Part shown: piece by piece, positions 3,225 to 36,869 of the stretch
Layout: each line of letters begins with the position of its first letter
Numbering within the stretch: the first letter of the stretch is position 1
From: Clytia hemisphaerica
Taxonomy: Eukaryota; Cnidaria; Hydrozoa; Leptothecata; Clytiidae
Length of the DNA stretch: 64,000 nt
Direction: 5' to 3'
NCBI GenBank assembly: GCA_902728285.1
Contig: CACVBU010000726.1
Coordinates: forward strand, 806,001 to 870,000
Program-made: the position numbers and the translations under genes
The notes under the pieces: model-generated
The model's input: only the letters and a program-made list of their open reading frames with translations
Database searches by the model: none
What the model was told of the DNA's origin: nothing

Positions 3225-3278
3225 GGAGCTACAGGTCGTGACGGTTCACCAGGCGATACTGGCAAGAAAGGAATTACG
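3225..3278 (+). CDS. Collagen exon 1 of window, helical
   Basis: 54 bp: [18 protein letters not shown]. Flanked by gtag and gtaact. Confidence 0.92.
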
Positions 3279-9200: not shown

Positions 9201-12200
9201 TTTTCCTAAGAAATCGGGTGTTTTAGAGTCCACAAGGCCTTAAAATTTTCCTGTCGAAAGTTGAACTGCTTCACTAAAATTGAACCTAATTTGATATAGG
9301 TTAAGATGGTCAAATTCTGATGTTTCATTTCATTATTTTTGTGTTTTTTGCTTTCAGGGCTACCCTGGAAACCCTGGAGAACCCGGAGATCCTGGCCACC
9401 CGGGACAAGTGGTAAGTTTGTATTGAAAAAAAAAATGTGGAAACTTTTCAGTTTATTGACGCAAAAGAGCAGTTTGCAAAACTGATAGAACATTGATTTC
9501 CTCTCTGAAATAATAATTGAACTTAAGAAATTTTTTTTAATGAGTTTTTTTAATCGTGAAAAATTTTGAAAAAGTTTCAAAAAACGTTACAAAATCACTA
9601 ATTTTAAATTTGTTATAAATTTTTGTCTGGATACCAATAACCCATGATACTAAAAGGATTTTAAGCTTTTTTTAGGTATAAGAAATGGTTGTACAACTAT
9701 GTCAATAACGTCATGATGTCGGAGATTTTATTAAGTCCGATCTCCACTTGCCCGCGCTTCGATCGCACTTTTTCAATAAATGCTTCCACGCTATTGGTCA
9801 AAAGAAAAATGAAGCAATTCCATTGGCGCAATCTGACATAACGGTTGAAAACAGTTTAAATGTATTCAACTTTTTTTTCGAACGCGCGCTACATTTTTAT
9901 GACGTAATTTTTTTTTCCAAGCAAAAAGGATTGAAGCCAAAAGGTGCGATCGCAGCGCGCGCAAGTGGAGACCGGCCTTTACTTAATCAAAAAAGTGATG
10001 TATCTTATTACGCGAATATTTCTACTCATTTTATTAACACGAATTGTAAAATTTCATGTTAATTAAAACCCCCTTAATTAAAACCAGAAAAATTCGTGTT
10101 AATTTCAGATCGTCCAAAAATTCAAGGCCGTTGAATACTTGCCCAGTAACATTCGTGTAATAAGGTAACATTTTTTTTACAATCAACTCAATTCAACAAC
10201 AACAACAACAAATTGTTTTCAGGGCATCAAAGGACCAACTGGTGAACAAGGAAATGAAGGCCCAAGAGGATTCGAGGTTTGATTTCTTTATTATTGTTCG
10301 CGTTCTGATTTTGGGCTTCCTTCATTTCCGAGTGATTGATCGATTGATTGATTAGTTCATTATTTAGTTTCTTAATACATTCCTTTCATATGGAAATTTA
10401 CCGTGGATTGAGATTTACGTTTGGTCATGTTTCGAGGATTCTTTCCAGATATTGGGCTTTCCTCACATGAATTTTTAAAATACATGTATTGGTATTCACC
10501 AAGTACTGTACCAGAAAGTCAGTACTTTTTGTGTTATTGTATTCGGTCTAGTAAGACTGCGAGTAAAGGCTACCAGACCATATCATTACCAGCAGTTAAG
10601 GACTACTGGACTACACACAATATATTGGAAATTGTTCACAATATATTGAAAATTGTTCACAATATATTGGAAATTGTTCACAATATATTGGAAATTGTTC
10701 ACAATATATTGGAAATTGTTCACAATATATTGGAAATTGTTCACAATATATTGAAAATTGTTTACAATATATCAAAAGGTGTCTGTAATATATTGCAAGC
10801 TCGTTTTGCAGTGATTTAACAATATAGGGGGGATGTTTACAGAATGAAAATTCCTTATTATATAATAGAGCACCTGTTGTTTCCGTTTGGTCCGCAAACT
10901 TTATTTGTGAAATTTTCACTCACCAATATACTTTGTAGTTCAAAGTAGCCCTTTAGGTAATTTCAAAGTATATAGAAAAATTCAATAAATCATATCATTA
11001 CTTCCAGGTATTGTCTTCATTTGCATATCACCCGTAAATCTACCGTTACCTTTCTCTTGATAATATCTTTCCAACAAGATATTCAAGTTTTTGATACTCT
11101 TTTCGATTTCTTTCTCGGTGACTTGCCCTTCATTGGTTCTGTTGCTCTTTCGTCTGCGCATGCACAGAACGAAAATGGTGGCTAGAATACCAATGACTAT
11201 AACACCAGTAGTTGTACTAAACAGAACAGCATAAAGAGGATCTGACCAAGCCTCGCTTCCAATCAAATCTCCATAATCTAGAGTCTCCATGAAAACGTTC
11301 CTATTATGCAAATCCAAAACGTCAGATATGACTTGATCTTTGAACGTCCCGAACATACATTTCAAAACCTCATCGGTATCTTTACCGAACGGTGCACTAC
11401 CAATAAACATGTAGAACTTGACTTGGGCAGGAAGCGTGTAGACCATTTGTAGCCTAGGATGTTTGGACTGGTTCCGTATCTCATCTTGCATCCAACCAGC
11501 TATTTCGTATGGAATAACTGCAGCATAAGCGTCCTCGCTGCGAACAGCATCAATTACTTCTTGGTAAGATTCACGGAGTATAGGATGAGCTGAATAATCG
11601 CTTTGAAGAATTTTATGTTCGTGTGACCGGTTCAAAACTGCGATGTTTTTTCCTTCAATCTCCAAACCATGAATTCCGACCACATTATCCGATATTGTCG
11701 CTGTTAATACTGATGCTATAACAACAGCTATAAACATCCATACAACGGACAAAAGACGTCCAAAATACGTCACAGGTGTGACGTCACCATATCCAACGGT
11801 TGTCATAGTGACAAAGGACCAATAGACTCCAGTCCCAATTCCAATGCGTCCTTCAAAGACTGGGTTCCAGCGATATTCCAACAACCAAAACAATGAACCA
11901 AACGCAACAGCTAGGAGTGAGGATAGGAAAAACACTTTACCACTATTTACAATACCTCTGGTAATCTTTTGATGGATGTTAATAAGAGAATGTGGCATAA
12001 TCACCACCATTTTTTCACTTGTTAATATTGTTCTTTGAAGAACTTGGCGGTATTGTATGAAATATGGTTTATCTTCCAAGTCGTAGTGTACATTTGCGGG
12101 ACCCCATACCACTGTATCTGAATTATTAATTTTTGTCAGCGGACCTTCGCCGTACTTTATTGAACTTTTTAGGATTTGCCAGAATGCCTCTCTTGATTTT

Positions 12201-15200
12201 AAATCAGCACTATACTCAACTCCAACTAAACTGGCAGGTGTTATACAAAAAAGACCAGTTGATCTGAAGATGAGATCGATAATACCTAAAGCTGATGCAT
12301 GTCCACGTGTTTCTGCACTCCCCTCCACAAAAGGCATTAACGGGTAGTAAATCAATTGAATTTTGTGTTTTAGGTTGATATGATAGTTTATCGGTTGATT
12401 TGTTCCATTGTTAGTGTTGTTTGAGGTTTGATTTGTATTAGATGTTTGGTTGACAGTGATGGATGCTAATAATTCCAATGTAGATAGAATTGTTACCAGT
12501 ACAACTAGTCTCGCCATGATTTTACAACTCAATCTTTTAGATTAAAATTGTTTCGTTCAAGATTCAAGTTAGCGTTCTAAAAATCAAAATAATTCTTCAT
12601 TTCAATACATTATATACAATATCTTAGTAGTACCAAATCTGTGATTTTTCTTTAAAAACTTTATTAATTTCCCCTCGAATTTTTACTAACATGTGAAAAA
12701 TACTGATTTCATATCAAGAAAAATTAAATTATCAGATCGATATTTGCGATGTGGTAAATTTTGTGAATCGATATTTCAATTATTTATGTAAATAAATGAT
12801 AGATCAGAGAAACCACGATTCCTATTTTGCTTTGATGTAAACCTATTTTTATTGAAGTTTCAAGGCCCTCGTACACTTGTCAATATCAAATCAATATTAA
12901 AAAACTGTTACTATAAATAGAGCATAAATATTATTGAGCTAATATTGCTAAATGTAAAGATAAAAAATTGAATCCAAATGATGTTCAAATTTATGAAAGT
13001 GCTCCATTGTTTGATCATTGAGCGAGAGATGATTTAAATTGAAATTTTTCAATCTAATTCCGCTTCCATTCGCTGCCGATTATGAGTATACTCGTTGAGG
13101 AATGCGGAAATATCGGTCGTGGTCGAAGTCACCATGATTTTTAAGTTATATTTTTTCTTGTTTTTTGACCTCTCGGAGGCCTCTTTTGTTACGATCTTAA
13201 TCGAATATGATTTTTAATTTAATTTCTTTTGCCTAAATATATCCCACAAAATATTCATAAAGGAATAGAAAAATAAATTTATCGATTCATTGAATAAATT
13301 CTTTTTTTCGAAAGGGTGATAATAAATTGTAAACGAGATGAAAAACCACATCTAACTTTAGCGATAATATTGATCACAATAAAAGGGAAAAGAATAGAAC
13401 CAGAAACAACAATTCTTGAATTTTAAACTGGTATTGCTAATTTTGAACCTGGGCACGCCATCTGCTGAAGTTACCAAGTCGAAGGAAAGCCAAGGAAAAT
13501 TGTATTATTGTAGATTTTGGACATCTAATTTTTAAGAAAAAAAAATCAGTTCATAACTTGAGAAGGAAGTATTTTTCGAATACCGACAACTCAAACGTAC
13601 TAGCAAAAATGGATCTTGTTTTATTATCAATTATCATCTATACAAGCTTGCTAAAGGACATTGTAACAGCAAATCAGACAGTCAGTCCACCACAACTAAA
13701 TAGACTTCAACTCATCTATTACCCACAAATGCCTTTCACCACCAACAAGGATAACTACGATGCTTCTCAACCAAGAACACTCTTCTCAACTGGAATCGTT
13801 GAACTCATTTTCAAAACTACTGGATTATATTGTATAGAACCTCCTCAGAGTGACGTCATTGAACATGTAGTCAACCTTCAAACTCGAGAACAATTTTACG
13901 CTACTGTGAAAAACACAACTTTAAATTATGGTCAAGGAATACTAGAAAATGTGACCAAACCTGAAAAAGTCATTTGGGGTCCAATGAATCGGCACTTAGA
14001 TTATGAGACGCCGTACTTCATCCGTGATCGACGCTTGATTTCGAGAACCATTCTAACAAGCGACAAAATTATTGTTATAGTGCCTCGTTATCGGATCAGC
14101 TTTCATTACAAGTTATATTATGGGTTAGCGAACAGTCATCGAATCTTAACAATATCTATTATTCTGGCGCTTCTTACAGGTACTTTATTCTGGCTTTGTG
14201 AGCGATCTAAGAACCCAGTTTTCGACGGCCTTGTTGGTATGGGGACTGGAATATACTGGTCGTTTGTTACCATGACAACTGTCGGATACGGTGACGTCAC
14301 ACCTGTTACCTTCATCGGGCGCTTTGTGTCCATAGTTTGGATGTTATTCGCCCTTATAATCGCTTCCGCCTTAACCGCCACTTTTTCTGATAGTTTTACC
14401 GGAATTTCCGGATTAGAAGTTGAAGGACGAGAAATAGCTGCATTGCAGTATTCATACGAAATGAGAGTCTTGGAAACAGATTATTCAGTCTCGAAGGTGA
14501 TTGGTCGCCCATCCTACCATGATGTCATTGAAGCTGTCAGGAATAACGAAGCCTTTGGTGCAGTTATCCCGTATGAAATTGCTGCTTGGATGCAGGATGA
14601 GATACTGAATTCAGAAAAAGAACCTTTATCTATGGTATATACATTACCAGCCAAAATCAAATTCAATATCCTTATTGCCAGACACTCTTTTGGAGACAGA
14701 GAACAAAGTAATGAAATCTTTCATTGTATGTTTGCAACATATCGGCATTTGGTAATCGAAGATGTCTTAGACGTGCATCAACGTAATGTGTTTTTAGAGA
14801 CTATCTACTATGCTGGTTCTTTTAATGCGGCAAATTTTAAAAACGTGATCTACGCTGTCATCGTCATACCGATTTTCGCTGTTGTTGGTCTTGGACTTTT
14901 GTTTTCTTTTTATGAATTTTTCAAGAAACGGAAAACTATAAAAACAAAATCATTGGGAGACTGCTCAGAGGGGTCTAGTGAACAGAAAATTGAGAAAATT
15001 GTGAGCCAAATAAGCGTTCTACTGGATGATCTTAAAAGTATTAAGGATGCTGAAAAGAATCAAATTGGCGATAAAACTAGTTTAAATCATAATGCTTAAC
15101 CATTCAACGGTATTCAAATATCAAATATATTTTAAAAAAATAATAATGTGCATTCTTTTAGAAAATGATACTTTAAATTTTACTCAATTTAAATTTAAGT

Positions 15201-18200
15201 AATTTTTATCATTATTAAGCACGTTAGCATTAAATATCGGTTATTCTCAACTTCAGTTGAGCTATAATCTGAGAATGTCTGTATGTATGTATGTATGTCT
15301 GTATGTCCGTCCGAAAACTTTAGGGCAGGCTTGACACTTCAAAAAAGGTCGGATTTGGCTGAAATTTGGCACACTTGTTCCTTGGGTGAATATCTGGGGG
15401 TATTTTTTTCATTTTTTGAAAATTTTGATTTTTGGGGCCTGGGGACGAGTTTTTCGCCAAAACGAGGCTAAAACTTTGGGGCAGCCTGGACACTTCAAAA
15501 AAGGTCGGATTTGACTGAAATTTGGCACACTTGTTCCTTGGGTGAATATCTGGGGGTGTTTTTTTCATTTTTTGAAAATTTTGATTTTTGGGGCCTGGGG
15601 ACGAGTTTTTCACCAAAACGAGGCTGGCAGCCTGGACACTTCAAAAAAGGTCGGATTTGGCTGAAATTTGGCACACTTGTTCCTTGGGTGAATATCTGGG
15701 GGTTTTTTATTTCATTTTTTTGAAAATTTTGATTTTTGGGGCCTGGGGACGAGTTTTTCACCAAAACGAGGCTGGCAGCCTGGACACTTCAAAAAAGGTC
15801 GGATTTGGCTGAAATTTGGCACACTTGTTCCTTGGGTGAATATCTGGGGGTATTTTTTTCATTTTTTGAAAATTTTGATTTTTGGGGCCTGGGGCCTTCT
15901 AATAACGGGAAAATCTGAAGTTGAGCCCAGTGCGGTGCGCACGTTCGACTATATCAGATAGCCGTTCATAGTATCCACTAAATACTGTACATAGAATTGG
16001 CTTAATCACACTGACCTTTATATATCCCTGGACCAAGTTTCTCAATGAAATTGGTACCCTAATGGCGGCACTACTCAATAGTGGTGAAAATACGTCGAGA
16101 GCGCTAGATCTACTTTCCCCGAATACTTTTGATGATCTAGCGCCGTTAGACGTTAACTTTTAACATTGCAATGGCTTCTTCTCGGGTACCACCAAAAGAA
16201 TCCGATCAAAGATGGCGGATATTGCTTGGTCCAGGGTTATATAAAGGTCAGTGCTTAATCCGCATTATCACCCAAAAGAATGATGGATGGTCAGGTCCTT
16301 AATTTGTTCTGTTTCTAAGTATTCGTTATGGGCAACGCACGCATCCCCTCTGATATGTTTTGATATAGGGTTGCGTATCTTGTTTAAAATTCTTGTCCGA
16401 GCGTTACTCCCGTCTTTGTGTTTTTGAGTTTTAACTTGATAAGCTGGGATAGTGAGTTTTATATAAGAGATCTTTGATTTTCATTAAATTTAATTAAAAA
16501 TTTGAATGGCTAGGTTAGTACAATCATTGGATTTCTAATGCTTTTTAAGAAAGTTGAAGCAGGTTAACCCAAAATTTCGGACGGAAATTTTATAACGATA
16601 CGCACCCCCTATATCAAAATCAGTTCTAGGAATGCGCGCAGCCTATATTCGTTATAAATGTTGCTTTCCTTTATCTTCACTAATATGTAATGCTAGTGGA
16701 AGATTTGTGTGCCAACCAGCACTAGCTGGGATCTGGTATCGAGTTAGTAAACAAATCCATTGTTCGGGATGTCTAAGGGTTCCTTTCTGGTAATAGGGTT
16801 AAAACCGTTACCATTCTTAATTTGATTTAACTTATCAATCATATTTGATAGTTCTTTTATCGACTTGTCAATTTTCCCATCAAGCTCTCTTGCCTCGCTG
16901 CCTTTGTCGATTTTAGACTTCTGATGGCGAAAGTTCCAGTATGCCCAAATAGCACCAATAATGGCCAAAATCCCAATAACAGCGATCATTTTAAGCGTAT
17001 GAGGTGATTTAAATATCTCACCTATTGTGTGTCCACCATAATAATTTGTCTGTAAATTAATGGGTTGTCGAAAATAATCTTGAGCAGTTTCCAATACACT
17101 TTGTCTGAGCGTCCCAAACATACAGTCCAGCATATCCTTGGCAAATGGAAATGCATCCTTACTTAAAAGCATATTGAAGATGGTAACTCCAGGTAAAGTG
17201 TAAACCATACTTAATACATTACTTTCTGTCTCATCCAAGATCTGATCTTTCATCCATGCCGCTATTTCAATTGGCAATAAAGCAGCGAAGACTTTCTCTT
17301 GTCTGACTGCTTCCACGACTTCTTCATAGGTTTCATAGGAGATATAATCTTTGACACCAAAATGAACTTGAGCTTGGTATTCTTGATGTGATCGAGATAA
17401 AACGGAGACTGTTTTACCGCTTATTTCGAGACCATTAATCCCAGACACTGTATCAGATATGGTTGCAGTTAGTATGGAAGATATCGCTAGCCCAAGAAGC
17501 ATCCACATAACGGCCAAAGAACGTCCGAGAAACGTTATTGGTGTGACGTCACCGTAACCGACAGTTGTCATGGTAACAAACGCCCAGTAGATCCCAGACC
17601 CGGCACCTGTTTTCGGTTTACAGTTTGAGTTAAACGGTAATTCGAATATCCAAAATAATAATCCGGAAATGAAACTAAGTAGAGAGACAGCAAAAACGAT
17701 GATATTACTATTAATGATGCCTCTAAGAAGTTTGTTTGGTAGCCAGATTTCACTGCGTGACATTATTACAACTACTTCCTGACTTTTTAAAATGTCAAAT
17801 GTCTCTAAACCTCGTTCATGAAACATACTAACATTTACAGCTGCCAAATAATAATCAAATGGTCCCCACATCACTTTCTGTGGTGTTGTCAAATTCTTTA
17901 GAATTCCTTCACCATGACGTATACTTGTATTTCTCATAACGTCAAAACTTTTTAACCGTGATTCCAAGACAATTTTAGTGTGTAATAGAATGTGGGTGGC
18001 GTTCGGTGTACATTTCACGCGGCCGAGCTCAAATAGAACAGGTATGATACCAGCTGGGTTCCCATAATCATCCAATTGATAAAAAGGTGGTTGTTTGTAC
18101 AATACTCCTTGGTATGTGTCCGATGTGTTCCATTGTAGTCCTGGTGATGCCGTAATCTTTGGGAGGAAGCTCAAAAATGACGATAGTAAGATAAGCAGCA

Positions 18201-21200
18201 TCGTTTCAGATTGTCAACTGAAAATTCACGAACTCAACAAGAATATTTGTTTTTTCTTCCGCTGACTTTCTAATACTTGAAATAACCAGGATATATTGTG
18301 TTATCTCTTTTCTATTAAGAAATCATTTTTTGAATATTATTATATCAAATGTTTGGTTTGTTTTTACCCTTAGACACCCTCAATAACCGTTTCATATTCA
18401 TGGTTTTTCTCACTAAAAATAAAAATTTGTTGGATTAACGAAAAATGAGCTGAATACAACTTTTATGAATTATTTATCAGCAATTTACCTTGGAAGAGAT
18501 ATATAGATTTTAGTAATGTTTAGGTTAAATGTTTTATTTTTACATAAGTGCTGTTTCCGTTTCATGTCAGACACATATTTCATATCAGGACAGTGTCTAC
18601 CTATTTTTATATTGTGCTGATATAAGCAAAAAATGTTTTTCTTTTCCTCTTTCTGACCAATTTGCTCCACATCCGTGTCTATTCAATACGAAAAAGCTTG
18701 TGAATTGAAATTGATGGGTAAGCAAACGATATCACTCTCATTCAAAAACAAAACCTTTAAGTTTTTTTACTAAAATGTATTGTATTTAGTTTTGACTTTA
18801 TATCAAAATGAGGTATTAGCTGGAACACTCCACACTACCAAATTTACCAAAACTTTACTCCAAGTAACTTCCAAAGTTTACTTTCATAGGATCCCTTGAT
18901 TGAAATCAAGGTCACGGAGTATAGATAAGTTGCTCTTCAAACTCTGCCCCTGGACTGCCTACAGGACCCGATGGAAAACAGTATATTTATATAACTGAGG
19001 TGTATATCCTGTATAAATATTCGTAATAATAATAATAACTAGGTCACAGTGTGGATCTAAACCACACTGAAACGACCGCCTTCCTTCACGCATCACGCAC
19101 GGCGAGCGCGCGCACATTGTTAACGCCTACATGTCATCTCCAGTACATTTTAGATTATTCATTGGAAACAGATTACAATATAGTCATTTTTCACGTCTCG
19201 ATTATTCAATTACGAATAAAAGACATTCAGGAAAAAAAAAGAGAAACACCTGGGTAATCTAGTTAAAAAAACCGAAAGTAAATGGTAGACAAAGTAATGA
19301 GCCAAGGCAAAACGAGATTAGCGTACCACTATGAAAGAAACCGCCTCCGGCGGTCGATAATAATGGACCTGATGGTTTCCCTGCCATCCTGCTCAAAAAA
19401 GCCAGACAACAACAACTTGCAACTCCTCTTTGTCTTATCTGGAGAAACAAGTTCACAGAGTATAGATAAGTTGCTTCCCAAGAGAGCCGACTAATACAGG
19501 TCGGAATTGAGAAACTTCCTCCAGGGTTTACATAAAGCTCACTGATTCATTCTCATACTCCATGTTACACTTAAGGTGAACTTACTATAACCTGCTGCTA
19601 TCTTTAGTGTATATATTTTCCAAGGTACTAAATGCTTGTAAATCGTGTTTCGCGAGTACTGAACTTCGCGATTTCGACTTTCTGGACTGTTTTGCGTGTA
19701 TTAAATTTTGCATATCACTGAATTGGATATTTTTAAAGAAGAGGATTAAAACAAGGAAAAGACTTGCTTGAAACACAACGTAATAGGTGCAAAAATAGTT
19801 TCAAAATTGGAATAAAATGGTGACAAAAATGGTAAGACATTGTAAGAAAATGTTTGCCTATTTTGAAAGTTTTCGCGTGTATTCGATTTCGGGGATTTTG
19901 TGTTTTTGAAAGATTTAAACAGTACTAAATTTCGTGAAATTTTGCCTAAATAAGTCGCGAAATTAAGTACACACAAAAACTTAGGATACACTTAAGGTGA
20001 GTTATAGGATGACATGGAAAAAATTTTTGATATTCATGACGTAATATTTTATACGGAAACACACGAAAAACACCGGGCGTTTGCCACCAGTCTCATTGTT
20101 TAAATTCAAAATTGGCCGGTGTTTTTCGTGTATTTCTGTATAGAAGATTACGTCATGAATATCAAAAATTCTAAACAAACATCCAAATTCAAATCCCTCG
20201 ATGTCACTATACCGATTTATAGCTCGTGTAAGCTTTATGAGTTTAAGAAAATGTTAGTACATGATGTTTTTATATGAACAAACTACATAAGAATATAAGG
20301 CTCCGATAGAAAAAATACTGAGAACAAGAAAATGAACATGTTTGACTTTGCGGACTCTGAAACACTGAATTTCTCAAAAATGATAAAAATTAGAACATTT
20401 TAAGAACATTTTTAGACTTAAGCTCAAAAAGTTAATAATATTCGAAAGCTTCAAAACTTTTGGACGCTCTTACAAATGTGTAATCATCTTTATTCATCTT
20501 AGATGATCTTCCGAGCCTAAATGAACTTCAATACTATTTAAGCAGAAAATGAGCTAACTAGCTATCAATGAAATTTGTGTGGGAATCTTTTCCAGAAAAG
20601 TAACTTATAACCTCAAGAGAACTTATTTTCGCAGGAGCTAATTTTCGCTTTTTTGCGGTTTTTCGGCATACCGCGAAAATTAGAACCCACGAATTACGAA
20701 TTTGGCACTTTTTTCATCAAAGCATCAAAGTCTACAGGAAAATGAAAGAAATATGTCTAAAATAGGGGAAAACCACGAAGATGAATTCCCGCGAAAAGCA
20801 ATTTTTTCGAATTTGTTTTTTGACCGCTAAAATTGATTCCCTGAAGGTACACATCAAAGCACATATCAAACTACTTTTTGCTAACTTACGTAAATCTTTG
20901 ATTAATTTCAAAATAAAAATTCTCAATGCTTTTAATTAGCACATTGTATTCAAAAATAGTTTTTTTTTCCTGAAAATGATTGAAAAAATTTTTTAATCGA
21001 ATTTGACTAATCAAAACAGTGTGTAACATCGTTTCACAAAGTATTGAGAATTCATGTCCAATAGATTTGTTAGCTATCAGAAAAATTTTTCTATTGATTA
21101 ATAGTTGATAACATCCCCTCTTTTTAACGCTAATCAAAGCGAAATATCACGATATTCCTGAGTTTTCAATATTTCGCTGTTTTTAACACTGATTAAAGTA

Positions 21201-24200
21201 AAAAGTGAGATTCTAAAGCAAAAGTTTTCTCAAAAGATTATATCTTGACTACATCAACAATATGAAGGTTCTTAAATCAAGCGTATCAGCTTAAACAAAT
21301 ACATTTGTATAAAGGTTTTAAGTCATCGTTTCAAATAGCAATGGTGCTGATAATTTTCGTTTTCACATTTGCTGTAAGCTTCCAGTCAATATCTTGTTTC
21401 TATGTTCTACCAAATGCTGATGGTAGCGTTGAATTGCAAGCTGTTTATACTGAAGTCAAACCGTTCATTTATTTTGATCCAGAAAGTGACAGGATGGAAG
21501 GTAAGGTTCATAATAATACACAGGTTGCAAAATTATATCAATGCAGTCAAAACATGTGATTACTCGAAAAAATTCTCGTAATTTTATTCCCATGTTACTC
21601 GCTTTACAACTTAAAACTGAATCAAAAATACATGTCATGTAACAAGCACATAAAAAGTTCGAGTAAAAGCGTGATTTGTCTTCTGACTTTAATTTTACAA
21701 CCTGTGTATTTTATATACAATTAAATTGAATCTCTATTATTAGAGCCTCTATAACTCGAATAACTCCATAACTCGAACATGGTTATAAACAAAACCTTAT
21801 AAACACTTCTCTATAGCTCGAATTTTCTATAACTCGAATAAACTCTAATTCCCCGTTCGCGTTCGACTTGTAGAGACTCCACTCTATTTTTATTTTACCG
21901 AATCATCTCGTGCATTTTTGAGAGTCGAAATATTCATTAAATGTAAACTCTCGTATTTATTTAAGAGTGACCATCGTAGTACAGTAGTAGGGTATCCGGC
22001 TATGGTGCGCGAGGTTGTGGGTTCAACCCCCAGCCGGGTCATACCAAAGATTTCCAAAATGGTACTTGATACCTCTCTGCTTGATACTCAGCAATTAAGA
22101 GAAGGATCAATGGTAAGTGGAGCAATCCAGGGAGGTAGAGTGGCGCCTTCCCCTACCTTCGGGTAGATAGCTATCGAAAGAGGAGCCTTCGGGTCGCCTC
22201 GGTCGTAGACTACTTACTTACAGACTACTTATATCTATTTATCTTTCACAGGTATATACCCGTTGATCTTTTACAAAAGTGCTGCATACTGTACCGATTC
22301 ACCACGAGTTCACTTAGTCAATTACACTGTTCAAATGGAAACAAGTGGCCAAATGGACGAATTGATGAAATCTGATACAAACATCGGAGAAGGGGGACTT
22401 GGTAATATCACCAAGGAGACCATTATGTGGTTACCCTTTGATACTCATGTTGATAAAATTGGTCCACGCTCATTCTTGAAACGGAATTTAACCAAATTAA
22501 ATCTTCTTTCTAGTAACGGACTTGCTGTTTTTATGCCCCGCAAAATGATCGCTTTGCCGAATAAACTTTTACGTGGGACACGATTTTGTGACTTAATTGT
22601 GATCATTACCATTCTTGTTGGCTTCTTGTTCGGGCTTTTGGTTTGGATTGTTGAACGGCCCTATAATCCTGCTTTTCAGGATCGAATCGGGCCGTTGTCA
22701 GGTATTTACTGGTCTTTTGTTACTATGACAACCGTTGGTTATGGCGACATTGTGCCGGTATCGATCATCGGGAAAACGATCTCAGTTGTTTGGATGTTTA
22801 TGGGGTTGATGGTTGCAGCTGTAATGACCGCAACGCTAACCAATGTCGTCACTGGAGTTGAGGGGCTCGGGATCGAAGGGAAAAGGGTTGCAGTAATGCG
22901 AGATTCGTACGAAGAGCTTTACGTTGAAAGGGATTACCGTGCCGTCGCCGTTACGTTTGATACGTATGAAGAAGTTATACAGGCATCAAGAGATGAAGTT
23001 GTTTACGCTTCCGTGCTCCCGTATGACGTCGCAGCTTGGATGCAGGACGAGATACGACACCCGCCTGATGACGTAATCCCGTTAAGTGCTGTATATATCC
23101 TTCAAGGGAAAGTGCCGTTCGATATTTTGGTCTATTTGAATAAAACTATGGAACATTTATTCTATTGTATGTTAGAAGTATTCCCTGAAGAGATAGTCAG
23201 GAGTAGTGAAGAGCTTTATAAGCGACCTATTATCCTGGAAACAACATTTTACGGAAATGTCTTTGAAACATTCCTCTATAACGTTCCGGTACAGATAATC
23301 GCCGGAATTACGTTACTAGTTATACTTGTTTCAGTTGTTGTGTATATTTTTGCTCGTCAATCGAAAGTCAACGTTAAAGAACAAAAGAAGATAACAATTG
23401 AACGTTCGATAAACCAACTGGCATTTCTATTGGATGATTATAAACAGATTTTGAAGACAGAAGAGTTATCGATGAAACCTTTCAGTTGAGTTTTTGTGTT
23501 ACAGATGCGTTATGTAAAGTATTGGGCTGTTCCATAAAATTTCCATACAGGGGGGGAATGGCAAAATTAGCAAAAGAACCCTTGGAAAAATTATTTTCAT
23601 GTCTTAAAGTGAGGGTGGACGAACTATAAAATCAGTTGTTCACCCCCTGGAAGTTCAAGGATAACTTTTTACTCCCTGGAAAAATGAAAAAAAAATTCTT
23701 TAGATCCCTGGAAATTCTTATCGGATTACCCCCTGGAAATGTTCGTCCACCCCCCTCCCTATATGGTCATAAAATGGAATGGCCCATTTTGCGCTTCTGC
23801 TCCTAATATTGGTTTCTTGACATTGTTGGCTTTATCTGGCTAATGATCAATGACTAGTTTTGAATTTTGAATCAAAGAACTCTGAAAACTGAATGAAACC
23901 TTGTATATAATGAAGACATATTGTAGCTCTCTGTATATTGATAGAACTACGATATTATGTCAGTTGTTGTAGCATTGATTAAAGGGTGAACCAGACGTTT
24001 TAAGGACGCACACGTTCATTCACTAACAGGGTTACCAATTTTATTGTTAAATAACTTCATGGTAACCCCTTTTTTATTTTAAAGTTATAAAATCAATTTG
24101 ATAAACTTGATGACCGAATGGCCAAACATATGACCTGACAACGAGTGAATGCGATGAATGAATGAATGAATGAATGAATGAATGAATGAATGAATGAATG

Positions 24201-24761
24201 AATGAATGAATGAATGAATGAATGAATGAATGAATGAATGAATGAATGAATGAATGAATGAATGAATGAATGAATGATATTGTCATTCTTCATAACGTGT
24301 ATATCCAGAGTCTTTCAAATTATTTGACAAAACAAACAAAAATGGAAATCCAAAATGGAAATCGTTTTTAAGGAATTTATGGCTATAACAACAATTCCTT
24401 TAATATCTGCCCTGTTTTATTGGTGCCGGGTATGTGCGAGCCATAAGGGTCCCTTTTTCACATACACGAAAGTCAAAAAGCCAATAAAAAGGAAGTGAGT
24501 CTCTATACGGGTTCCAAAATTACGAAAATAAAAAATCGACTCCGATTTCTTGAAATTTGGACTAAAATTTGAAAGTTTTGGCCGAAATTTTGGGGAAATA
24601 GTCTCTCTAAGGGTGACAAAAACGCCAAATATTTTGTCTCTCTCAGGGTCGGTTTTCGAACTTTGGCTCGGACATACCCGTCACCTTGCAAAGCTAGTAC
24701 TCTTAGGTTCCAAATAAACGGGGGGGGGGGTTCGAATAAACGGGGGGGTTGGAAAATTTTA

Positions 24762-24820
<59 letters not shown>

Positions 24821-27800
24821 AAAAAAAAAAAAAAAAACCTAATAAACGGGGGGGGGACCTAATTGCTGGGGGGGGTTGAAAATTGTACTTCTGAAACCCA
24901 AAAATAAGGTAAAAATAGGCTAAAATCAGGCTATTTAGAGCAAAATAAGGGGCCTTCTCTTTGACAGCTGAAAATATTTTTAGAGATTAATAAACGGGGG
25001 GGTCCTAATAAGGTCCGGGGGGAGGTTGGCAAATTTTCGAAAAAATTAACAAGCGGGGGGCCGTTTATTTGGAACCTAAGAGTACCTGCGCCGGGTCAAT
25101 GAGATAAAACCAAACACTATAAGCAACTCTTAAGCTTTTCCTAGGAAAGCGAAAGTGGCTTCTGAAGATCTGCTCCGTATTTACCACGGATTGATCCCAG
25201 CGCTTCCTTTATTTTGGAGATATTTTTTCAAAATCAAGCGTTTAACACTTACAATCTAGTGTTTGTGTTGAAAACCACGTGGACTGCACTATTTAACTTA
25301 CAGTCTTTTGGATATATTTCATTGTTGATGGCTCAAACTTATACAACTCAGTATGGATATATTTGTATCCGTCGTTTGTCTTTTCAAAAGTGGCTTTACC
25401 AACCTACCTGTTAAAATCATTAATAATTTAATGGAAAAAACCGAAAGGGAACTCCTACTTTTCCCCAAAGATATTCCTTTTGTTATTGTTATTTGGGTGT
25501 TTAGTTTCCGATGAATGTTGATTTGTTCTTAAATTGAAAAGAAAAAGATTCATGTGGAGCTATTGTCTTTATTGAAACACCCATTAACAACCTCTAAATT
25601 AAACTGAATTAAAGTCTCTAATTAAGTCGCATACCCAGGGCTTTTGCTTTGTTTTTTGGAGACTGGCGAATGAAAAATTAACTCTGGCGGTTTTCAGATT
25701 CCTGGCCGGCGAATTCTTAGCAAGCGCAGTGTATTGATTAGCGTAAATATGTACTTGAGGCGGCGAACCGAACTTTTAGAATTGCAAATTGTAATTTTGT
25801 TTTTCGTGCCTTGGACCGGAAAAAATCGCCGTTTGCCGGGCCTAAATTAAACCCCTGTATTACCGTGTCTTACCAATGTGTTCTACTAATGTAAAACGTT
25901 GATATAGAACTTAACCTTCTTGCTACGTACAAAGGTTTAAAGTACACGCTTTTTTTTTATAAGAATGGTGTAAATCCATTTCATCGTGGATATTCTTAAC
26001 TTTTATGGGAAAATCATCCTAAAATATTCTTACAGCATTCTTAGGTTATGATCCTAATTGACAATCTATAATTTAAAATGGTCTAAAAATGGCATTCTTA
26101 GCTTGAGTAGCAAAATTCTATGATGGTGATATTCTTAGTATATTCTTAATTTTTTGGCCATTTTCATCATGGACATTCTTATAAAGTGTATTCTTATAAA
26201 AAAAAGCGTGTAATTTGAACTACTCAATAATTGGTTGGATATCTTCTTATAACCCTAAGATTCAAGAGACTTTGAAGGTTTTAAAAGATAAAAAAAAGAT
26301 TACGTTTTTACCTAAGTCTACTGCTTCTAACAAAAAGCATGATATAGTTTAATGAATGTTACATTGCTTCCTTGTACTATATTGATTATCGTCTTAGGAT
26401 TTCCAATTTTTAAATAATTAAAAAATATCATATTCAGTAATTGATAAACTAAATGTTTAAAATTAACATTCTAAATTTGTTATCATTTTTCAAGTAATCG
26501 AAACATGGTGATATTTAAGAGGATTTATCAGCCAAAAATTTCGGATGTTCTTGAGTTTTAAACCAAACATGTTCTTAAAATGTTATTGTTTCACAATTCT
26601 TTTGAGTAGTTTTTGGGCAATTTCTTAAGAAATTGGGTGTTTTTGAGATTGCAAAGCCTTAAAATGTTCTTAACTTGTTCTTAATATTTTGGCCATCGAA
26701 GCCTTATGTTCTTGTATAGTTTGTTCTTATAAAAAAGTGTATTGGTATAGGATTTCATTCATCTAAAAGACAATCCAAGTATTTAGTATTGATTGGATGA
26801 TATACTGTAAATGGTTCATGATTTTAAATTTAGATTTTTATTGAAAAGTAGTCAAAAGAACTGAGATTTATTATTTTTTCATGACTTTGATTTTTGATAA
26901 AGATCAGAACTGGAACTTCACATCTGACGATTGCTAGGAGAGCATGAAACTCGGAGTTATGTACAACTTTTAACTTGTCAAGGAAATATATTATGGAAGC
27001 TCTATCTTTGATTTTCTCTGGTATTGAGCACTTTACGCATTAAATTGTTCACCAAACAATTAATTGAGATAAAGATCAGAACTGGCTAAAGTTATGACAT
27101 TTTGAGGAAAAGCCATAGCTTAGTATTTTGTCTTTGTTTTTCAGTTGAGATATATTTAATAGATAAAAATGACCAAATTATTAGATTACAATTAGCAGAA
27201 TAAGCCGGCGGGGAGATTTTTTAGAAATATGTGTTCTTTATCTTCTAGGAGACCACATGTTATGACCTTCCAATTTATTATACATATGATGTGTTCTGAT
27301 TTCTAGGAAACCTTTATCGCACTATTTGTCTCCCTAAACTTATCACGGCCTATCACTACTTTATGATTTGATGTGTTTTAAAATGTAGGAAAAACAGTTT
27401 GCCAACATAAATTGTAAGATATTTTGTTTTTCTCCACGTAAGATGTGTTCCTGAAAAAGATTAAATGTAAAGATTGATGTAAAAGATTACATCAATTTTC
27501 TCTTGATTATACCCCTGTCTCCTTAAAAGATGTGTTCTGGAGCTTTTTAGGGTTACCTAGACAACAAGAACACGTTAGATGACCTTCATTATACCCATGT
27601 CTCGTCAGAACACATCGGAAAAAAGGTCGCCTCGCCGGCTGCTTTAGTATAGTTTTATCATCTTTGTGCCGATTCCTTTTTGAGTCTTCATCCCTTCAAG
27701 AGATGAAGTTCTTTTTCATGGACAGAAAACAGAGTTTAGCTACAACTTGATTTTTTCAGGCCCAGTCTGGCCCAGAAGGAATACCATCTTGAGTGTTATT

Positions 27801-30800
27801 TCTGAGACATTTTGCTTTGATAAAGAAAAATTTGATTGCATTGAAAGAGTTATAACAGATAACTTTTTGCACCTTTTTCTAAAAGAATATTTCAAAATTG
27901 TTCCCGTTCAAAATGCAATAATTTTTTATTTTGGAATCAATAAATTCGCTGAAAAAAGAGAAACTCGAGAAAATTGATAAAGATAAAAGTCAAGGATGGT
28001 TATTTCAATGGTCGGCTCGAAGAAAAAGAATTGTCGAGAGAATTAAATTTCTATCAGCATGATGACCAATTTTTGTTAATTTTTGATTTTTCAAGCTAAA
28101 ATATGAAAAGATGAAAAAGTACAAATAATAATTCTAAAAGCACCGGTAAAATGGGATTTGTCAGCATCTTTTATTTGCTCTTCAAAACCATTACTTCGAT
28201 ACAATGCTCAGCAACAAACTACACTAACAACAGTAGCCAGCAGTATAACTCCAACGAATTCAAACCTATCAAATTGATTTACTGGCAAGTCAAACCGTTC
28301 TTTTACTTCAACGATGAAACTAATAAAATGGATGGTATATATCATATCATCTTTGAAAAAGGAGTTGAATATTGTTCAGATGGCAAAAACCCAATCTTAG
28401 AATATACCCTAGATGTTGGATCCAGAAGCAGTTTAGACGATTTGATCCGCTCAAACGTAACTTACGGTGAAGGGATACTGAAAGATATCGACCCAACAGA
28501 CTCGGTTATGTGGGGTCCTTATGATATGGAGATTGGGAAGATCGGAGCTCAACATTACTTAGATCGTAATCTAAGTCATTTGAATCTAGCTATTGATGAT
28601 GGTATTGTTGTGATTCTACCACGATGGAGAATTGCTCTCACCAACAAAGTTATGAATGCTGTGTTACAAATTGGACAGATTCTACTTCTATGTCTTGTAT
28701 TCTCGGCTTTTTTTGGCGCACTTTTCACCATTGTTGAACTTCTTACCGGTGAAAATGGACAAGAGGTCTCTCTCTTAGAGCCGTTTAATGGTATTTATTG
28801 GGGCTTTGTTACTATGACAACTGTTGGTTATGGAGATGTCGTTCCCAGGACACCTTTAGGTAAACTGGTCACCATTGTATGGATGATAGGTGCGCTTATT
28901 ACGTCATCAGTTCTAACGGCTACTTTTACTGATGTTGTGAACGGAACAAATTTGTTGAATATTCAAAATCAGAGGGTAGCTGTTATCAAACATTCTCACG
29001 AAGAGTTTTACGTGAAACGTGACTACACCGCTGAGCCGGTTTTATTTGAAACGTATATTGACGCCGTCGAGGCAGTACGGAATGAGTCTGTTTACGCTGC
29101 TGTTTTGCCGTATGACGTAGCTGCGTGGATGACGGATGAAATATATGGTAAAAGTGACTCAGATGAACTTTTAGTAGATGATCATTTAAGTATTGTGGAA
29201 AAACTTCATGGTAAAGTGCCATTTTCTATGATGGCTAATAGGAAGAATGATGATTTATATGACTGCATGTTCCGAAAATATCGGTACGATATTGTTGATC
29301 TTACCATCAGCGTATTACACCGTACGGTTGATCTACAAAATACGTATTACGGGGACATACACGTCGTGTTTACGCGTGCTCCGCTTGTTATAGCTATATC
29401 GGGCGTTACTGCTGGCCTATTGGGCGCCGCCATCGCTGTTACCATAGTTAAATGGAGGATGCAACGCAGAACAAAGGCTAGTTTAGGCTCTAGTTTACCT
29501 CAAAATAGCCTGGAGAATCAGAGAGAAGAAATCGATGAGCAATTTGAGAAATTATTTCTTTTGGTTAAGAGATATGAGTATTCTGTGAAGGAATATAAGA
29601 CGGTGACAATGTATGGTAGCAATGGTATTAACAATCCTTTAAATAACAGTACAAACAATGGTTTCGTGATCGATGAAACAAAATTCACTAACAATCCACT
29701 CTATTAGAGGTTACTGATCACAGATATTTTATATGAAACACTAGATAAAGCTACTTTATATTTCCCAAGCGAGGGCAGTTGAACAAAATAATCCGCCATC
29801 TTTACTGAAAAAAGACTGCAGTTCGGTACTTTTATTTTGTTCAATCAAAGCAAACAACTGATATGGTGTTATCCAAGTGAGGACGTAAAAGATAAAATTA
29901 CTAGTACCGAACTGTGGTCTACATTTTAAACAACTGTGCATTTTTCGCCTCCGCTAGGGAGTCCGCTATCAAGTCTAGGATAGAGGATCGATGAAAAAAA
30001 TTTGTGTCGAGGATCCTCTTAATATGAGATATCTATACTTATCTATTTTAAAAGAATACATACAGAATTTGAATATTTGTATATAATGTTTTACACGAAA
30101 ACAAACTTACATAAACTACCATTTATCCTACACTACCGAAAATATGTTTTGATCAGCGTATCAGACACAATCACAATGGTACAATGTGACAACATCTGAA
30201 AAACAGAACCAGGTGTAGATGAAATAGAGTCGTTCTCCATTTTGGTCTCGAATTTCTTTTTGATTCCTTGATATTATTCATTCGGGTGAAAAAAAGCCGA
30301 TGCAAGAGCTCACCACGCTATCACAAATAGCTATATACTTCTGGACCTTAATTCAGCACCGTAAAAAGGGCCGATAATGTACTTTTTCCAACGTCTCGTT
30401 CTAGCCCAATTTACAACTTATTGGTCATATCGCATAAGTAAGGTTTTAATCCATCCAAGTCCCCTCCGATTTCTTCTTTAGCAATTTCATTATACTCATT
30501 GATCAACGATGAAATTTTCCACAAACAATCTTCAATGTTCTCTTTCCTTTGTTTCTCCCTATCCAATAAGCCGTGTTTCTTATTATGACGTAGTAAAAAT
30601 ATAACAACACCAATTAACAATCCAGTCACGGCTGATACACATTGCACTATCGAGTTATGAAGAAAAACCTCATATAGATATCCATAATAAGTCGTTTCGA
30701 TCTTGATATGGCGTTTGTAAACTTGTTCACTCGTAGTCACGACTTCATATTTATAGGTTAACAGCATACACTCCAATAGCGCTTGACTCCCTGGAAAGGG

Positions 30801-33800
30801 GTCCTTCCCTATAAATATGGGGAACGGTACGTTGCCGCCTATGGTCTCGACAATCGATAAGGGTAACTCATCATGCCTACCTCGTATATCTTCTTGCATC
30901 CAAGCCGCCACATCATAAGGCATCACTGCAGCATAAACATCTTCATCCCGCACAGCTTGTACTACTTTCTCAAACGAATCGTAAAGCACTGGATAAGCAA
31001 AATAGTCGCGTTCAACAAAATATTCCTCGTGTGAATCTCTCACAACGGCCACTTTATGTCCTTCGATTCCAAGCCCCTCGACTCCAGTGACAACATTGGT
31101 TAATGTTGCGGTCATTACAGCTGCAACCATCAACCCCATAAACATCCAAACAACTGAGATGATTTTTCCAATCCGTGAGACAGGTGTTACGTCACCGTAG
31201 CCAACTGTTGTCATGGTGACAAAAGACCAATAGAGACCAGTCCAGGGCCCCACAATGGATTTGAAATGTGGGTTCACGTTTCGTTCGCAGATCCACATTA
31301 ACATACCAAAGAGTAAGCACAAGATGAACGAAATAACAATTATCAAGTTACAATATGTAATCCCACGTAAAATTTTATTAGGTAAAGAAATACGATATCG
31401 CGGTTGAATCACCACTAATTTGTCACTTGTTGCTAAGTTTAGCATAGTTAAGTTACGTCGTAAGAAATGGTCGGGTCGAATCTTCCCGATATTCTGATCA
31501 TAAGGTCCCCAAAGTACCGCTTTCTCCGATGTTATTTCCCGCATTTGTCCGGTGCCGTAAGAAAGGTTCGACCGCATGACCCGATCTAATTTATCTCTTG
31601 ATCCGAAATCTAGTTTATAGTCAATCAATGGATTTTTAAATGAAGGTGTACAATATTCGGCACCTTTGCGGAAAATTAACGGATAAATTCCTTCCATTCG
31701 GTGTGCTTTCTCGTCCCAGAAAATATACGGTTTGATTTGCCAGTAAATAGCTTGTAATTGTTTCCCATGATGTTTATTATGATGTGTTGATATTACGGAG
31801 GTAAGAGTGTAGAATGGCATTAAGGAGATAATAATAAATGGTATTCCAATGTGTAATTTCATTTTGGATATTCCAATTTTAGATATTGTATAAAATTGAT
31901 GATGTTTTTCTCGTGTTGAATGATCTTTGTACCGTGATACAGCTTTTGACTCTTACAAAAAGTCAAAAAATCTAAAGATCTTTCACCTCAACCAATCAAC
32001 TAAACCATTCATGATATCCTTGTGTTCATCCGTATGGTTTCGGTGTTGGTCTCCCCAATTTTACATGTTTTTTTTTTAGTCTCAAATGGAATAACTTTCC
32101 TCCGAATGGTCTAAAAATAAAATAAAAGTAATCAAAATATTTATAAATTAATCCTTTGTTTTTAAACGATCTTACTGCTTTGTTATTCAATCAATAATTT
32201 AATTTACCAAAATTTTTAATGAATTCCCCTTGAGTTTTCAATATTTTTATTTTGATTTCAAGGGGCCTTCGAATGGCTTCTGTCGCCAGATCTTGAATTT
32301 TAATTGCAATGGCATTTTTATGTAAGCTCTTGAGGATATGTGATGTTTAAACGCCGATATTTTCGCTTTGCGACGTACCGGAAAATGAAAACCGAAAAAG
32401 CTGAAGCAACAAATTCTCAGCTATTTTCGGATATTTCCAATAGATCTCATCGGAGTTTTTGATTTTTCTAAAAAAGGGATGCATTGTGGGATTGTTTCGG
32501 GAGTATTACAATAGAAATCTCTTAGGAATTCCTTGATGGAATTATATTGTAATAATCCCGAAACAATCCCACAATGCATCGTTTTTTTAGAAAAATCAGA
32601 AACTCCGATAAGATCTATTGAAATTAGCTGTCAAAGTTCTTGCGCTTATAAATCTCAATTTTTCAATCAAAGCGAAATAACTCAAAGAGCCCAAAAGATG
32701 AAAAATATCCAGTAGATCTAAGCCACGACCCCCTTTCATTAAATATCCCAGCATCCCCCAAATAAATTAAAGTTTGGAAAATTTCAAAACAAAAATTTTC
32801 ACTTTATAAAAGTTATAAAATAACGTACCAAATTTGATTTCTTTGGACTTTCCAAATTTGCTAAAAACTTGATTTTATTGAGGTTTGAAAGCGATTATCC
32901 AGGCTTTCTTGATAGATACGAAATAAAAACTCTCGAAATCAAGTATATTAAAGTTTTATGACGTAGCCCAGCTTGAGTATCCTTTGAAGAAGGAAAAAGA
33001 AACTTTTACAGGTCTTCATTAGAGATCTGGGTCAAGAATAAGTAAATAGATCTTTTTAAATTTTTTTGACGGTTCTATTTCAACTCTGTTTCTAATGAAT
33101 CCCTTTTAAAACTGAAATATATTTCGATAAAGATTTTTGATTTTTAATGTGTAGTTTTTCATGAATTATTTCACGTTTTTTTTTAAATAATTTTGAAATT
33201 TCCAATTTTTCACTACCGCAGTTGCCCATTAGGAAATTAAGTCAAAAGAGAGATTTCCCTTTATTTGAGTAGTATCTCTCTTGCGGGATTGACAGAGATA
33301 TGCTTTGGGATTAATAACCCTGAGGTTCATTGAAGACATTTCAGAATAGCCCGAGCGTAGTGAGGCTTAATGGACTACTGTTTCCATCGACCGCGTTGTC
33401 TTTTACGCTCGGTCAAATTTCCTAAAACCATCCACAAAATACGAGGTCTCTTGTGCGATTTTAAGTTCTGTTTTTGAAAAATTCCCTCAAGTCTACATCT
33501 TCGTTGATGGAAATGGACCGTCAACCATATCTGACATTTCCTGACCCCAAAAATTTGACGAAATTTCAAAGTCAATAAAACCCGAAACCAGTTAAACCAA
33601 TTGAAAGCTCTCGAAAAACGAGTTAGAGGACTTTTAAGTGAATAAAGTCTATTTCCAAACGTAACTCGAGAAAATTAACTTAAAAATTGCAATTTTACGG
33701 GTCAGATGTCACGGGTTCTAAGGAGAGTTCCTACTAAGAGAGAAAAATATTTCGGTTAGACCCACAAATACGCGAAAACGAGTGCTCAGGTTCAGGTCTC

Positions 33801-36730: not shown

Positions 36731-36824
<94 letters not shown>

Positions 36825-36834
36825 GTTTTTAATT

Positions 36835-36869
<35 letters not shown>

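Follow-up and report, generated by a model that had tools for sequence, protein, structure and literature searches.

Six paralogous long open reading frames (ORFs) lie between positions 10982 and 31862, on both strands, of a 64-kb stretch of the genome of the hydrozoan Clytia hemisphaerica (GenBank assembly GCA_902728285.1, contig CACVBU010000726.1, positions 806,001 to 870,000; the whole stretch of 64,000 nucleotides is called the window below). Judged by their sequences, they are best read as part of a real, unusual animal gene family which encodes inhibitory or chemosensory ligand-gated K+ channels, built on the plan of the bacterial receptor GluR0 plus the M4 helix of eukaryotic ionotropic glutamate receptors (iGluRs). 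Such channels resemble glutamate receptors with a K+-channel pore and may silence cells that ordinary glutamate receptors excite. The six ORFs at this span and the pore loop TMTTVGYGD had been pointed out in an earlier note on this DNA; the ORFs were recovered and the loop is found in all six.

Gene structures and domain plan

Gene structures, filter, a third hydrophobic helix and the lack of an amino-terminal domain are established by the sequence. The genes and their parts are as follows (S1 and S2, halves of the extracellular clamshell; M1 and M2, membrane helices; bit scores refer to the Pfam domain Ion_trans_2):

Gene 1: 10982..12517, - strand; 511 amino acids from ATG; hydrophobic N-terminus (putative signal peptide), S1, M1, TVGYGD pore, M2, S2, third transmembrane helix and tail; 48.6 bits
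Gene 2: 13609..15099, + strand; layout as gene 1; 496 amino acids from ATG; 47.7 bits
Gene 3: 16744..18201, - strand; layout as gene 1; 485 amino acids; 55.6 bits
Gene 4, exon 1: 21341..21500, + strand; putative signal peptide and start of S1; corresponds to residues 1-54 of P0004, a Clytia protein at NCBI
Gene 4, intron: 21501..22251, + strand; GT..AG; contains a tRNA-like stretch resembling a short interspersed nuclear element (SINE)
Gene 4, exon 2: 22252..23489, + strand; remaining S1, pore, S2 and third transmembrane helix; whole protein 465 amino acids; 48.5 bits
Gene 5: 28151..29707, + strand; layout as gene 1; 518 amino acids; 54.6 bits
Gene 6: 30411..31862, - strand; layout as gene 1; 483 amino acids; 56.1 bits; structure modelled

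Genes 1, 2, 3, 5 and 6 have no intron; each begins with an ATG, continues into a hydrophobic N-terminus and stays open from there on. The TTG starts given earlier for genes 1 and 2 were an artefact of genetic code table 11, and ATG codons are present at 12517 and 13609. When the window was shuffled 20 times by mononucleotides, no run without a stop exceeded 169 codons; the real ORFs of 408-518 codons were therefore not considered chance products or artefacts. Gene 4 is identical to P0004, an uncharacterised C. hemisphaerica protein at NCBI, over all 465 residues (in two pieces of 54 and 412 residues), and gene 5 is identical to P0016 (518 residues). A hydrophobic N-terminal segment is present in all six genes, that of gene 5 being visible only with a shorter, 12-residue window; these putative signal peptides were judged by hydrophobicity. 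A signal peptide in each ORF, as the earlier note had it, is plausible for the genes, but the ORF at 22263-23489 contains none, being part of exon 2 of gene 4, whose exon 1 the note had missed. The N-terminal segment ends shortly before S1, and no amino-terminal domain is present in the six genes, as had been proposed; in the family, a median of 213 residues precedes the filter. M1, M2 and the third, C-terminal hydrophobic segment are found in 6/6 genes, and Ion_trans_2 exceeds the Pfam cut-off in 6/6.

A protein search gave 171 matches, and the results below were taken from the best 120 of these 171. Among the matches listed, P0001-P0039 are family members (E-values from 1e-166 to 2e-44). P0018, P0029, P0031 and P0039, which are short, truncated or oddly ended, were omitted, as was P0016, the same as gene 5; the resulting family alignment A2 comprises 39 sequences. 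Invariant in A2 (39/39) are the filter VGYGD and two cysteines, C71 in S1 and C365 in S2 (gene 6 numbering), which possibly form a family-specific disulfide. In a tblastn search with P0001-P0039, the six genes and exon 1 of gene 4 were matched and no further family copy was found in the window. P0014, a Clytia protein according to its UniRef name, is an additional paralogue which this search did not find in the window.

For comparison, prokaryotic genome contigs were scanned for relatives, which gave at least 591 stretches, 553 of them encoding relatives; the best 80 of these 553 were used. Both S1 and S2 were detected by hidden Markov models (E < 1e-3) in 77 of the 80 loci (all except L006, L057 and L063). 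Among 11 IMG/VR loci, two (L081 and L082) contain S1 and S2 and are of the GluR0 type, and nine do not. Together these are 79 GluR0-type ORFs, all of which are closed by a stop codon within the locus. Following S2, all 39 members of A2 have a hydrophobic segment with a Kyte-Doolittle value of 2.05 or more (that of P0012 being the last found), whereas none of the 79 GluR0-type ORFs has a helix of 1.6 or above at this place. The family therefore unites the filter of GluR0 with the M4 helix known from eukaryotic iGluRs and, like GluR0, has no amino-terminal domain; contrary to the earlier note, its domain order is not exactly that of GluR0.

Predicted clamshell, ligand site and function

The next tier of the protein search (P0040-P0085, E-values from 2e-18 to 7e-10 among the matches listed) consists of proteins with substrate-binding and Lig_chan domains. 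From this tier and just below it, 22 sequences were taken for a profile, A3. In a comparison of A3 with the PDB, the GluR0 structures 1iit, 1ii5 and 2pyy were within the top five and animal iGluRs ranked lower; the A3 sequences were therefore taken as GluR0-type. Over the whole length, the profile-profile comparison of the family with A3 gave a probability of 99.9. S2 alone scored 44.2 against S2 of A3, while 40 shuffles of the columns reached 16.2 at most; for S1 alone, whose start is in register, the score was 22.7 (maximum 16.5 in shuffles). A wider bacterial profile of 101 sequences gave 40.4 for S2 and 22.7 for S1. Cross-pairs of the halves scored 10.2-19.8, the highest being S2 of the family against bacterial S1.

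The clamshell fold itself is a prediction: in the structure modelled for gene 6, the extracellular domain is bilobed, with the following segments.

Gene 6 model (residues): S1 36-154; M1 160-193; pore helix 205-217; M2 230-259; S2 270-402; third helix 404-465

AMPA and NMDA receptors were the best full-length Foldseek matches of this model. A fold without a bilobed binding domain, which had been named as a sign against the proposal, was thus not what was predicted. The suggestion of K+-filter channels in an animal genome whose pore is surrounded by a bilobed domain like that of iGluRs and GluR0 is supported.

Several results weigh against a ligand-gated channel of the iGluR fold. The S1 score of 22.7 is by itself not strong, being close to the 19.8 of an unrelated pair. 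Whole-chain template modelling scores of the Foldseek matches were low (0.29-0.43), which we attribute to the hinge of the predicted structure. Lig_chan (PF00060) reached 13.7-30.1 bits in the six proteins (gene 4 being represented by most of exon 2 only), below the gathering score of 30.8. No substrate-binding or glutamate-binding Pfam domain was detected in the six proteins at E-values up to 1, and when S1 and S2 of gene 6 were scanned by themselves, Pfam gave nothing at E-values up to 5. The M3 motif of iGluRs, SYTANLAAF, is seen in GluA2 and GluN1; its part SYTANL occurs in none of the 39 members, and the family carries ..LTATLT.. at its place.

For the ligand site, the alignments are ambiguous. 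In iGluRs, an arginine after the TIT motif of S1 binds the carboxylate of the ligand, and an aspartate or glutamate at the end of an S2 strand binds its amino group. Two of the alignments with bacterial GluR0 have L134 of gene 6 in the column of this arginine and P315 in that of the acid. In a third alignment, made with the wider profile, a two-residue gap places D317 in the acid column, the S1 part being unusable. Near the canonical columns, R136 (37/39), S277 (39/39) and D/E317 (37/39) are conserved well above most neighbours, so a kept site is suggested. The sequences would fit either a binding site kept with small loop insertions or a ligand other than an ordinary amino acid.

As a whole, ligand-gated, K+-selective channels of the iGluR fold are in our judgement the probable explanation. 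The six genes would encode subunits of tetramers, in which the extracellular clamshell (S1 and S2) binds a small ligand and closes. By way of the linkers, closure would act on M1, M2 and the third helix, the equivalent of M4, and would open an inverted pore with the TVGYGD filter. The resulting K+ efflux would hyperpolarise the cell, and the receptors would be inhibitory or set the resting potential. Their working mode would be that of GluR0, plus the C-terminal helix of eukaryotic iGluRs and minus the amino-terminal domain. We infer the tetramer, the ligand gating, the K+ selectivity, the inhibitory role and the presence of the family in other species. Given the many old paralogues and a short N-terminus like that of insect ionotropic receptors (IRs), a chemosensory role is as likely as a synaptic one.

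A clamshell that no longer binds a ligand and serves assembly or protein contact would make the proteins structural receptors or leak subunits, i.e., leak K+ channels or modulatory partners of the ordinary iGluRs of Clytia. A non-ligand role of the clamshell has been argued for some functions of GluD. The displacement of the canonical ligand residues in two of the three alignments would fit, and the C71/C365 pair might stiffen one lobe. However, the conservation of R136, S277 and D/E317 suggests a kept site and the predicted clamshell is complete; we regard this explanation as distinctly improbable. A voltage-gated (Kv) or two-pore K+ channel was rejected as the principal reading because of the hydrophobic N-terminus, the clamshell halves flanking the pore and the third helix that follows S2; taken by itself, the deep tree gives no such rejection.

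Relatives, age and origin of the family

The careful tree was computed from pore and S2 columns of hand-picked rows: 22 family rows out of 39, 26 rows of the GluR0 type, a protein of the brachiopod Lingula anatina (LOC106154502, P0086) and five K+ channels. The hydrozoan clade was supported with 100/99, the K+ channels with 100/97 and the GluR0-type rows with 87/74, and the hydrozoan stem is long (1.58 changes per column). A quick tree of 96 rows had a like outline, with a support of only 37 for the hydrozoan branch and one of ten K+ channels on the wrong side. In clade tests on the pore and S2 columns, none of the deep arrangements was rejected. The Lingula protein joins the hydrozoans in the free tree (77/6), and holding it with the bacteria gave a tree 2.4 log units higher (approximately unbiased [AU] test, p 0.63). 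Of the two origins offered in the earlier note, a retained ancestral form and a bacterial acquisition, these tests reject neither; a recent transfer is made less likely by the third helix and by the length of the hydrozoan stem.

Acquisition of a bacterial GluR0 gene by the hydrozoan or an early animal line, with the third helix added later, seems unlikely. The closest non-family relatives by sequence among the matches listed are GluR0-type proteins, bacterial where named, and a tree in which the hydrozoans are held with Bacteroidota rows was not rejected (6.9 log units lower, AU p 0.34). Yet the well-supported hydrozoan clade sits on its long stem and in the best tree does not fall within the bacteria sampled, the third helix is found throughout the family and in none of the 79 GluR0-type ORFs, one gene has an intron, and a Lingula protein is predicted to share the layout. 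We also doubt that an ordinary animal iGluR, having dropped its amino-terminal domain, went back to a K+ filter, as the rotifer line may have done separately. This would agree with the third helix and with AMPA and NMDA receptors as best full-length structural matches, but SYTANL is missing from all members and the pore points elsewhere: the median score of the family pore profile was 80 bits for 86 rows of the GluR0 type, which were pre-picked for similarity and are thus favoured, 57 on 24 K+ channels and 81 on the Lingula protein, compared with 24 on GluA2 and 17 on GluN1, the only two iGluRs included.

A K+-channel pore which acquired a clamshell domain independently of GluR0 is considered very improbable. 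S1 is only weakly similar to GluR0, and a clade of hydrozoans and K+ channels was not rejected, the tree being 2.3 log units above the free one (AU p 0.61). As to a placement inside Kv or two-pore channels, which the earlier note had named as a refuting result, the free tree sets the five K+ channels apart as a clade, whereas the slightly higher-scoring constrained tree joins them with the hydrozoans. Against this origin stand the strong, in-register match of S2 to that of GluR0, the insertion of the pore between S1 and S2 in the GluR0 fashion and the separate K+-channel clade of the free tree. A viral origin was rejected, as L081 and L082, the two GluR0-type loci among the 11 from IMG/VR, fall among the GluR0-type rows, apart from the hydrozoan clade. 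These two ORFs, with S1, K+ filter and S2, are located on IMG/VR contigs of 264 kb and 40 kb, which may be viral or carried-over host DNA.

Tentatively, and with more reserve than for the channel function, the family may be a separate animal class of ligand-gated K+ channels, with GluR0 filter, iGluR third helix and no amino-terminal domain, which is older than the cnidarian-bilaterian split (Clytia and Lingula) and serves fast K+-based inhibition or chemosensation. The Lingula protein is predicted to have the same architecture, in a model of middling quality (predicted local distance difference test 74.7). It is 15-20% identical to 21 family members over the alignment, its S1 is shorter, and Lig_chan is above the Pfam cut-off. 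A cysteine is present at the first of the two invariant sites and another lies a few columns off the second.

Pairwise identity among the six paralogues is only 30-50% (43% for genes 1 and 2), so that they are old duplicates. In the within-family tree, gene 1 is the sister of gene 2, P0032 is adjacent to the pair (99/92) and gene 5 groups with P0022 and P0020 (99/87); the groupings of gene 3 with P0035 and P0034 (97/65) and of gene 4 with P0006 (93/4) are weak. The local expansion envisaged in the earlier note was rejected in the sense of a recent one, the paralogues being this divergent and grouping with different relatives. P0006, P0022, P0032 and P0035 share the same longest-contig entry (70,864 bases) and hence would represent a like, conserved cluster on one contig of another species.

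To our knowledge, AvGluR1 of the rotifer Adineta vaga, reportedly the subject of work by Janovjak in 2011, is the only animal iGluR with a K+ filter, and we know of no IR pore with such a filter. The derivation of the non-selective, excitatory animal iGluR from an ancestor with a K+ filter is a long-standing problem, and a multi-gene family that has filter and third helix but lacks the amino-terminal domain, in a jellyfish which can be grown and edited, makes the order of steps directly testable. If functional, the proteins would be a class of ionotropic receptors that inhibit via K+ and not via Cl-. If a separate ancestral class is true, they would be living intermediates in iGluR evolution, with the gain of the third helix preceding both the loss of the K+ filter and the addition of the amino-terminal domain.

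GluR0 (Synechocystis Slr1257 and a Nostoc homologue) and the bacterial Group 1 receptors share with the hydrozoan family the order S1-M1-P-M2-S2 and the clamshell, predicted in the latter; as far as determined by 2010, a glutamate-binding site and a K+ filter were combined in bacteria only (PMC2950845). The hydrozoan family differs by the third helix, the ambiguous alignment of the ligand residues, its animal origin, the clustering and the intron in one gene. GluR0 and AvGluR1 are the K+-filter precedents named in PMC12332018; AvGluR1 has the eukaryotic iGluR architecture, including an amino-terminal domain according to the earlier note, and the six Clytia proteins share its K+ filter but have no amino-terminal domain. 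With animal iGluRs (AMPA, kainate, NMDA, delta and epsilon) the family has in common the clamshell (by prediction), the inverted pore and the third (M4) helix, but these have an amino-terminal domain and a Q/R/N-site pore, whereas the family has a K+ filter, neither amino-terminal domain nor SYTANL, and low pore similarity to GluA2 and GluN1. Insect IRs, which mostly lack the amino-terminal domain, form large families and are chemosensory, are a parallel, and were not found in Cnidaria (PMC2924276). GluR0 has a part in the volume control of cyanobacteria (PMC13099474), cnidarian fast inhibition is under study via pentameric Cl- channels (PMC13335744), and iGluR signalling terms occur in one neuron cluster of Hydractinia (PMC12464821). 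Clytia or hydrozoa are not mentioned in the main text of two broad iGluR phylogenies (PMC12226733, PMC6307864). By title or abstract, no description of K+-filter iGluR-like channels in cnidarians or brachiopods was found in the open-access literature, outside which most subscription papers lie and in which brachiopods were never a named search target; a search there for iGluRs of C. hemisphaerica likewise found none.

Genomic setting of the cluster

On the + strand, Gly-X-Y exons bounded by splice sites, 36 in all and 45, 54 or 108 bases long, were detected at 3225-10276 and 36934-53187, with an additional Gly-X-Y run at 54387-54458; none was found on the - strand or between 10276 and 36934. 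A fibrillar-collagen C-terminal domain (COLFI) follows at 56521-56829 (38 bits, cut-off 26.2), and a weaker piece at 59881-60135 (19.8 bits) is under the cut-off.

Apparent fibrillar collagen intron: 10277..36933, + strand; inferred from the Gly-X-Y exons on either side and COLFI; hosts the six channel genes

The simplest reading is a single fibrillar collagen gene with the channel cluster nested in a 26.7-kb intron, the COLFI scan having covered the sequence outside this span; two adjacent collagen genes would be the alternative. Since the channel genes are situated between collagen exons and gene 4 contains an intron, bacterial contamination was rejected.

Upstream of the first collagen exon seen, an ORF with a Fibrinogen_C domain (111 bits) is located at 1720-2520 on the - strand. 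Between genes 2 and 3, a tandem array at 15324-15894 consists of 3.8 copies of a 148-base unit which are 94% alike. No tRNA was found in the window by ARAGORN. Stretches like a tRNA B-box occur at 22013-22030 (+), within the intron of gene 4, and at 55463-55480 (-), with 0.07 expected by chance, and are probably SINE remnants.

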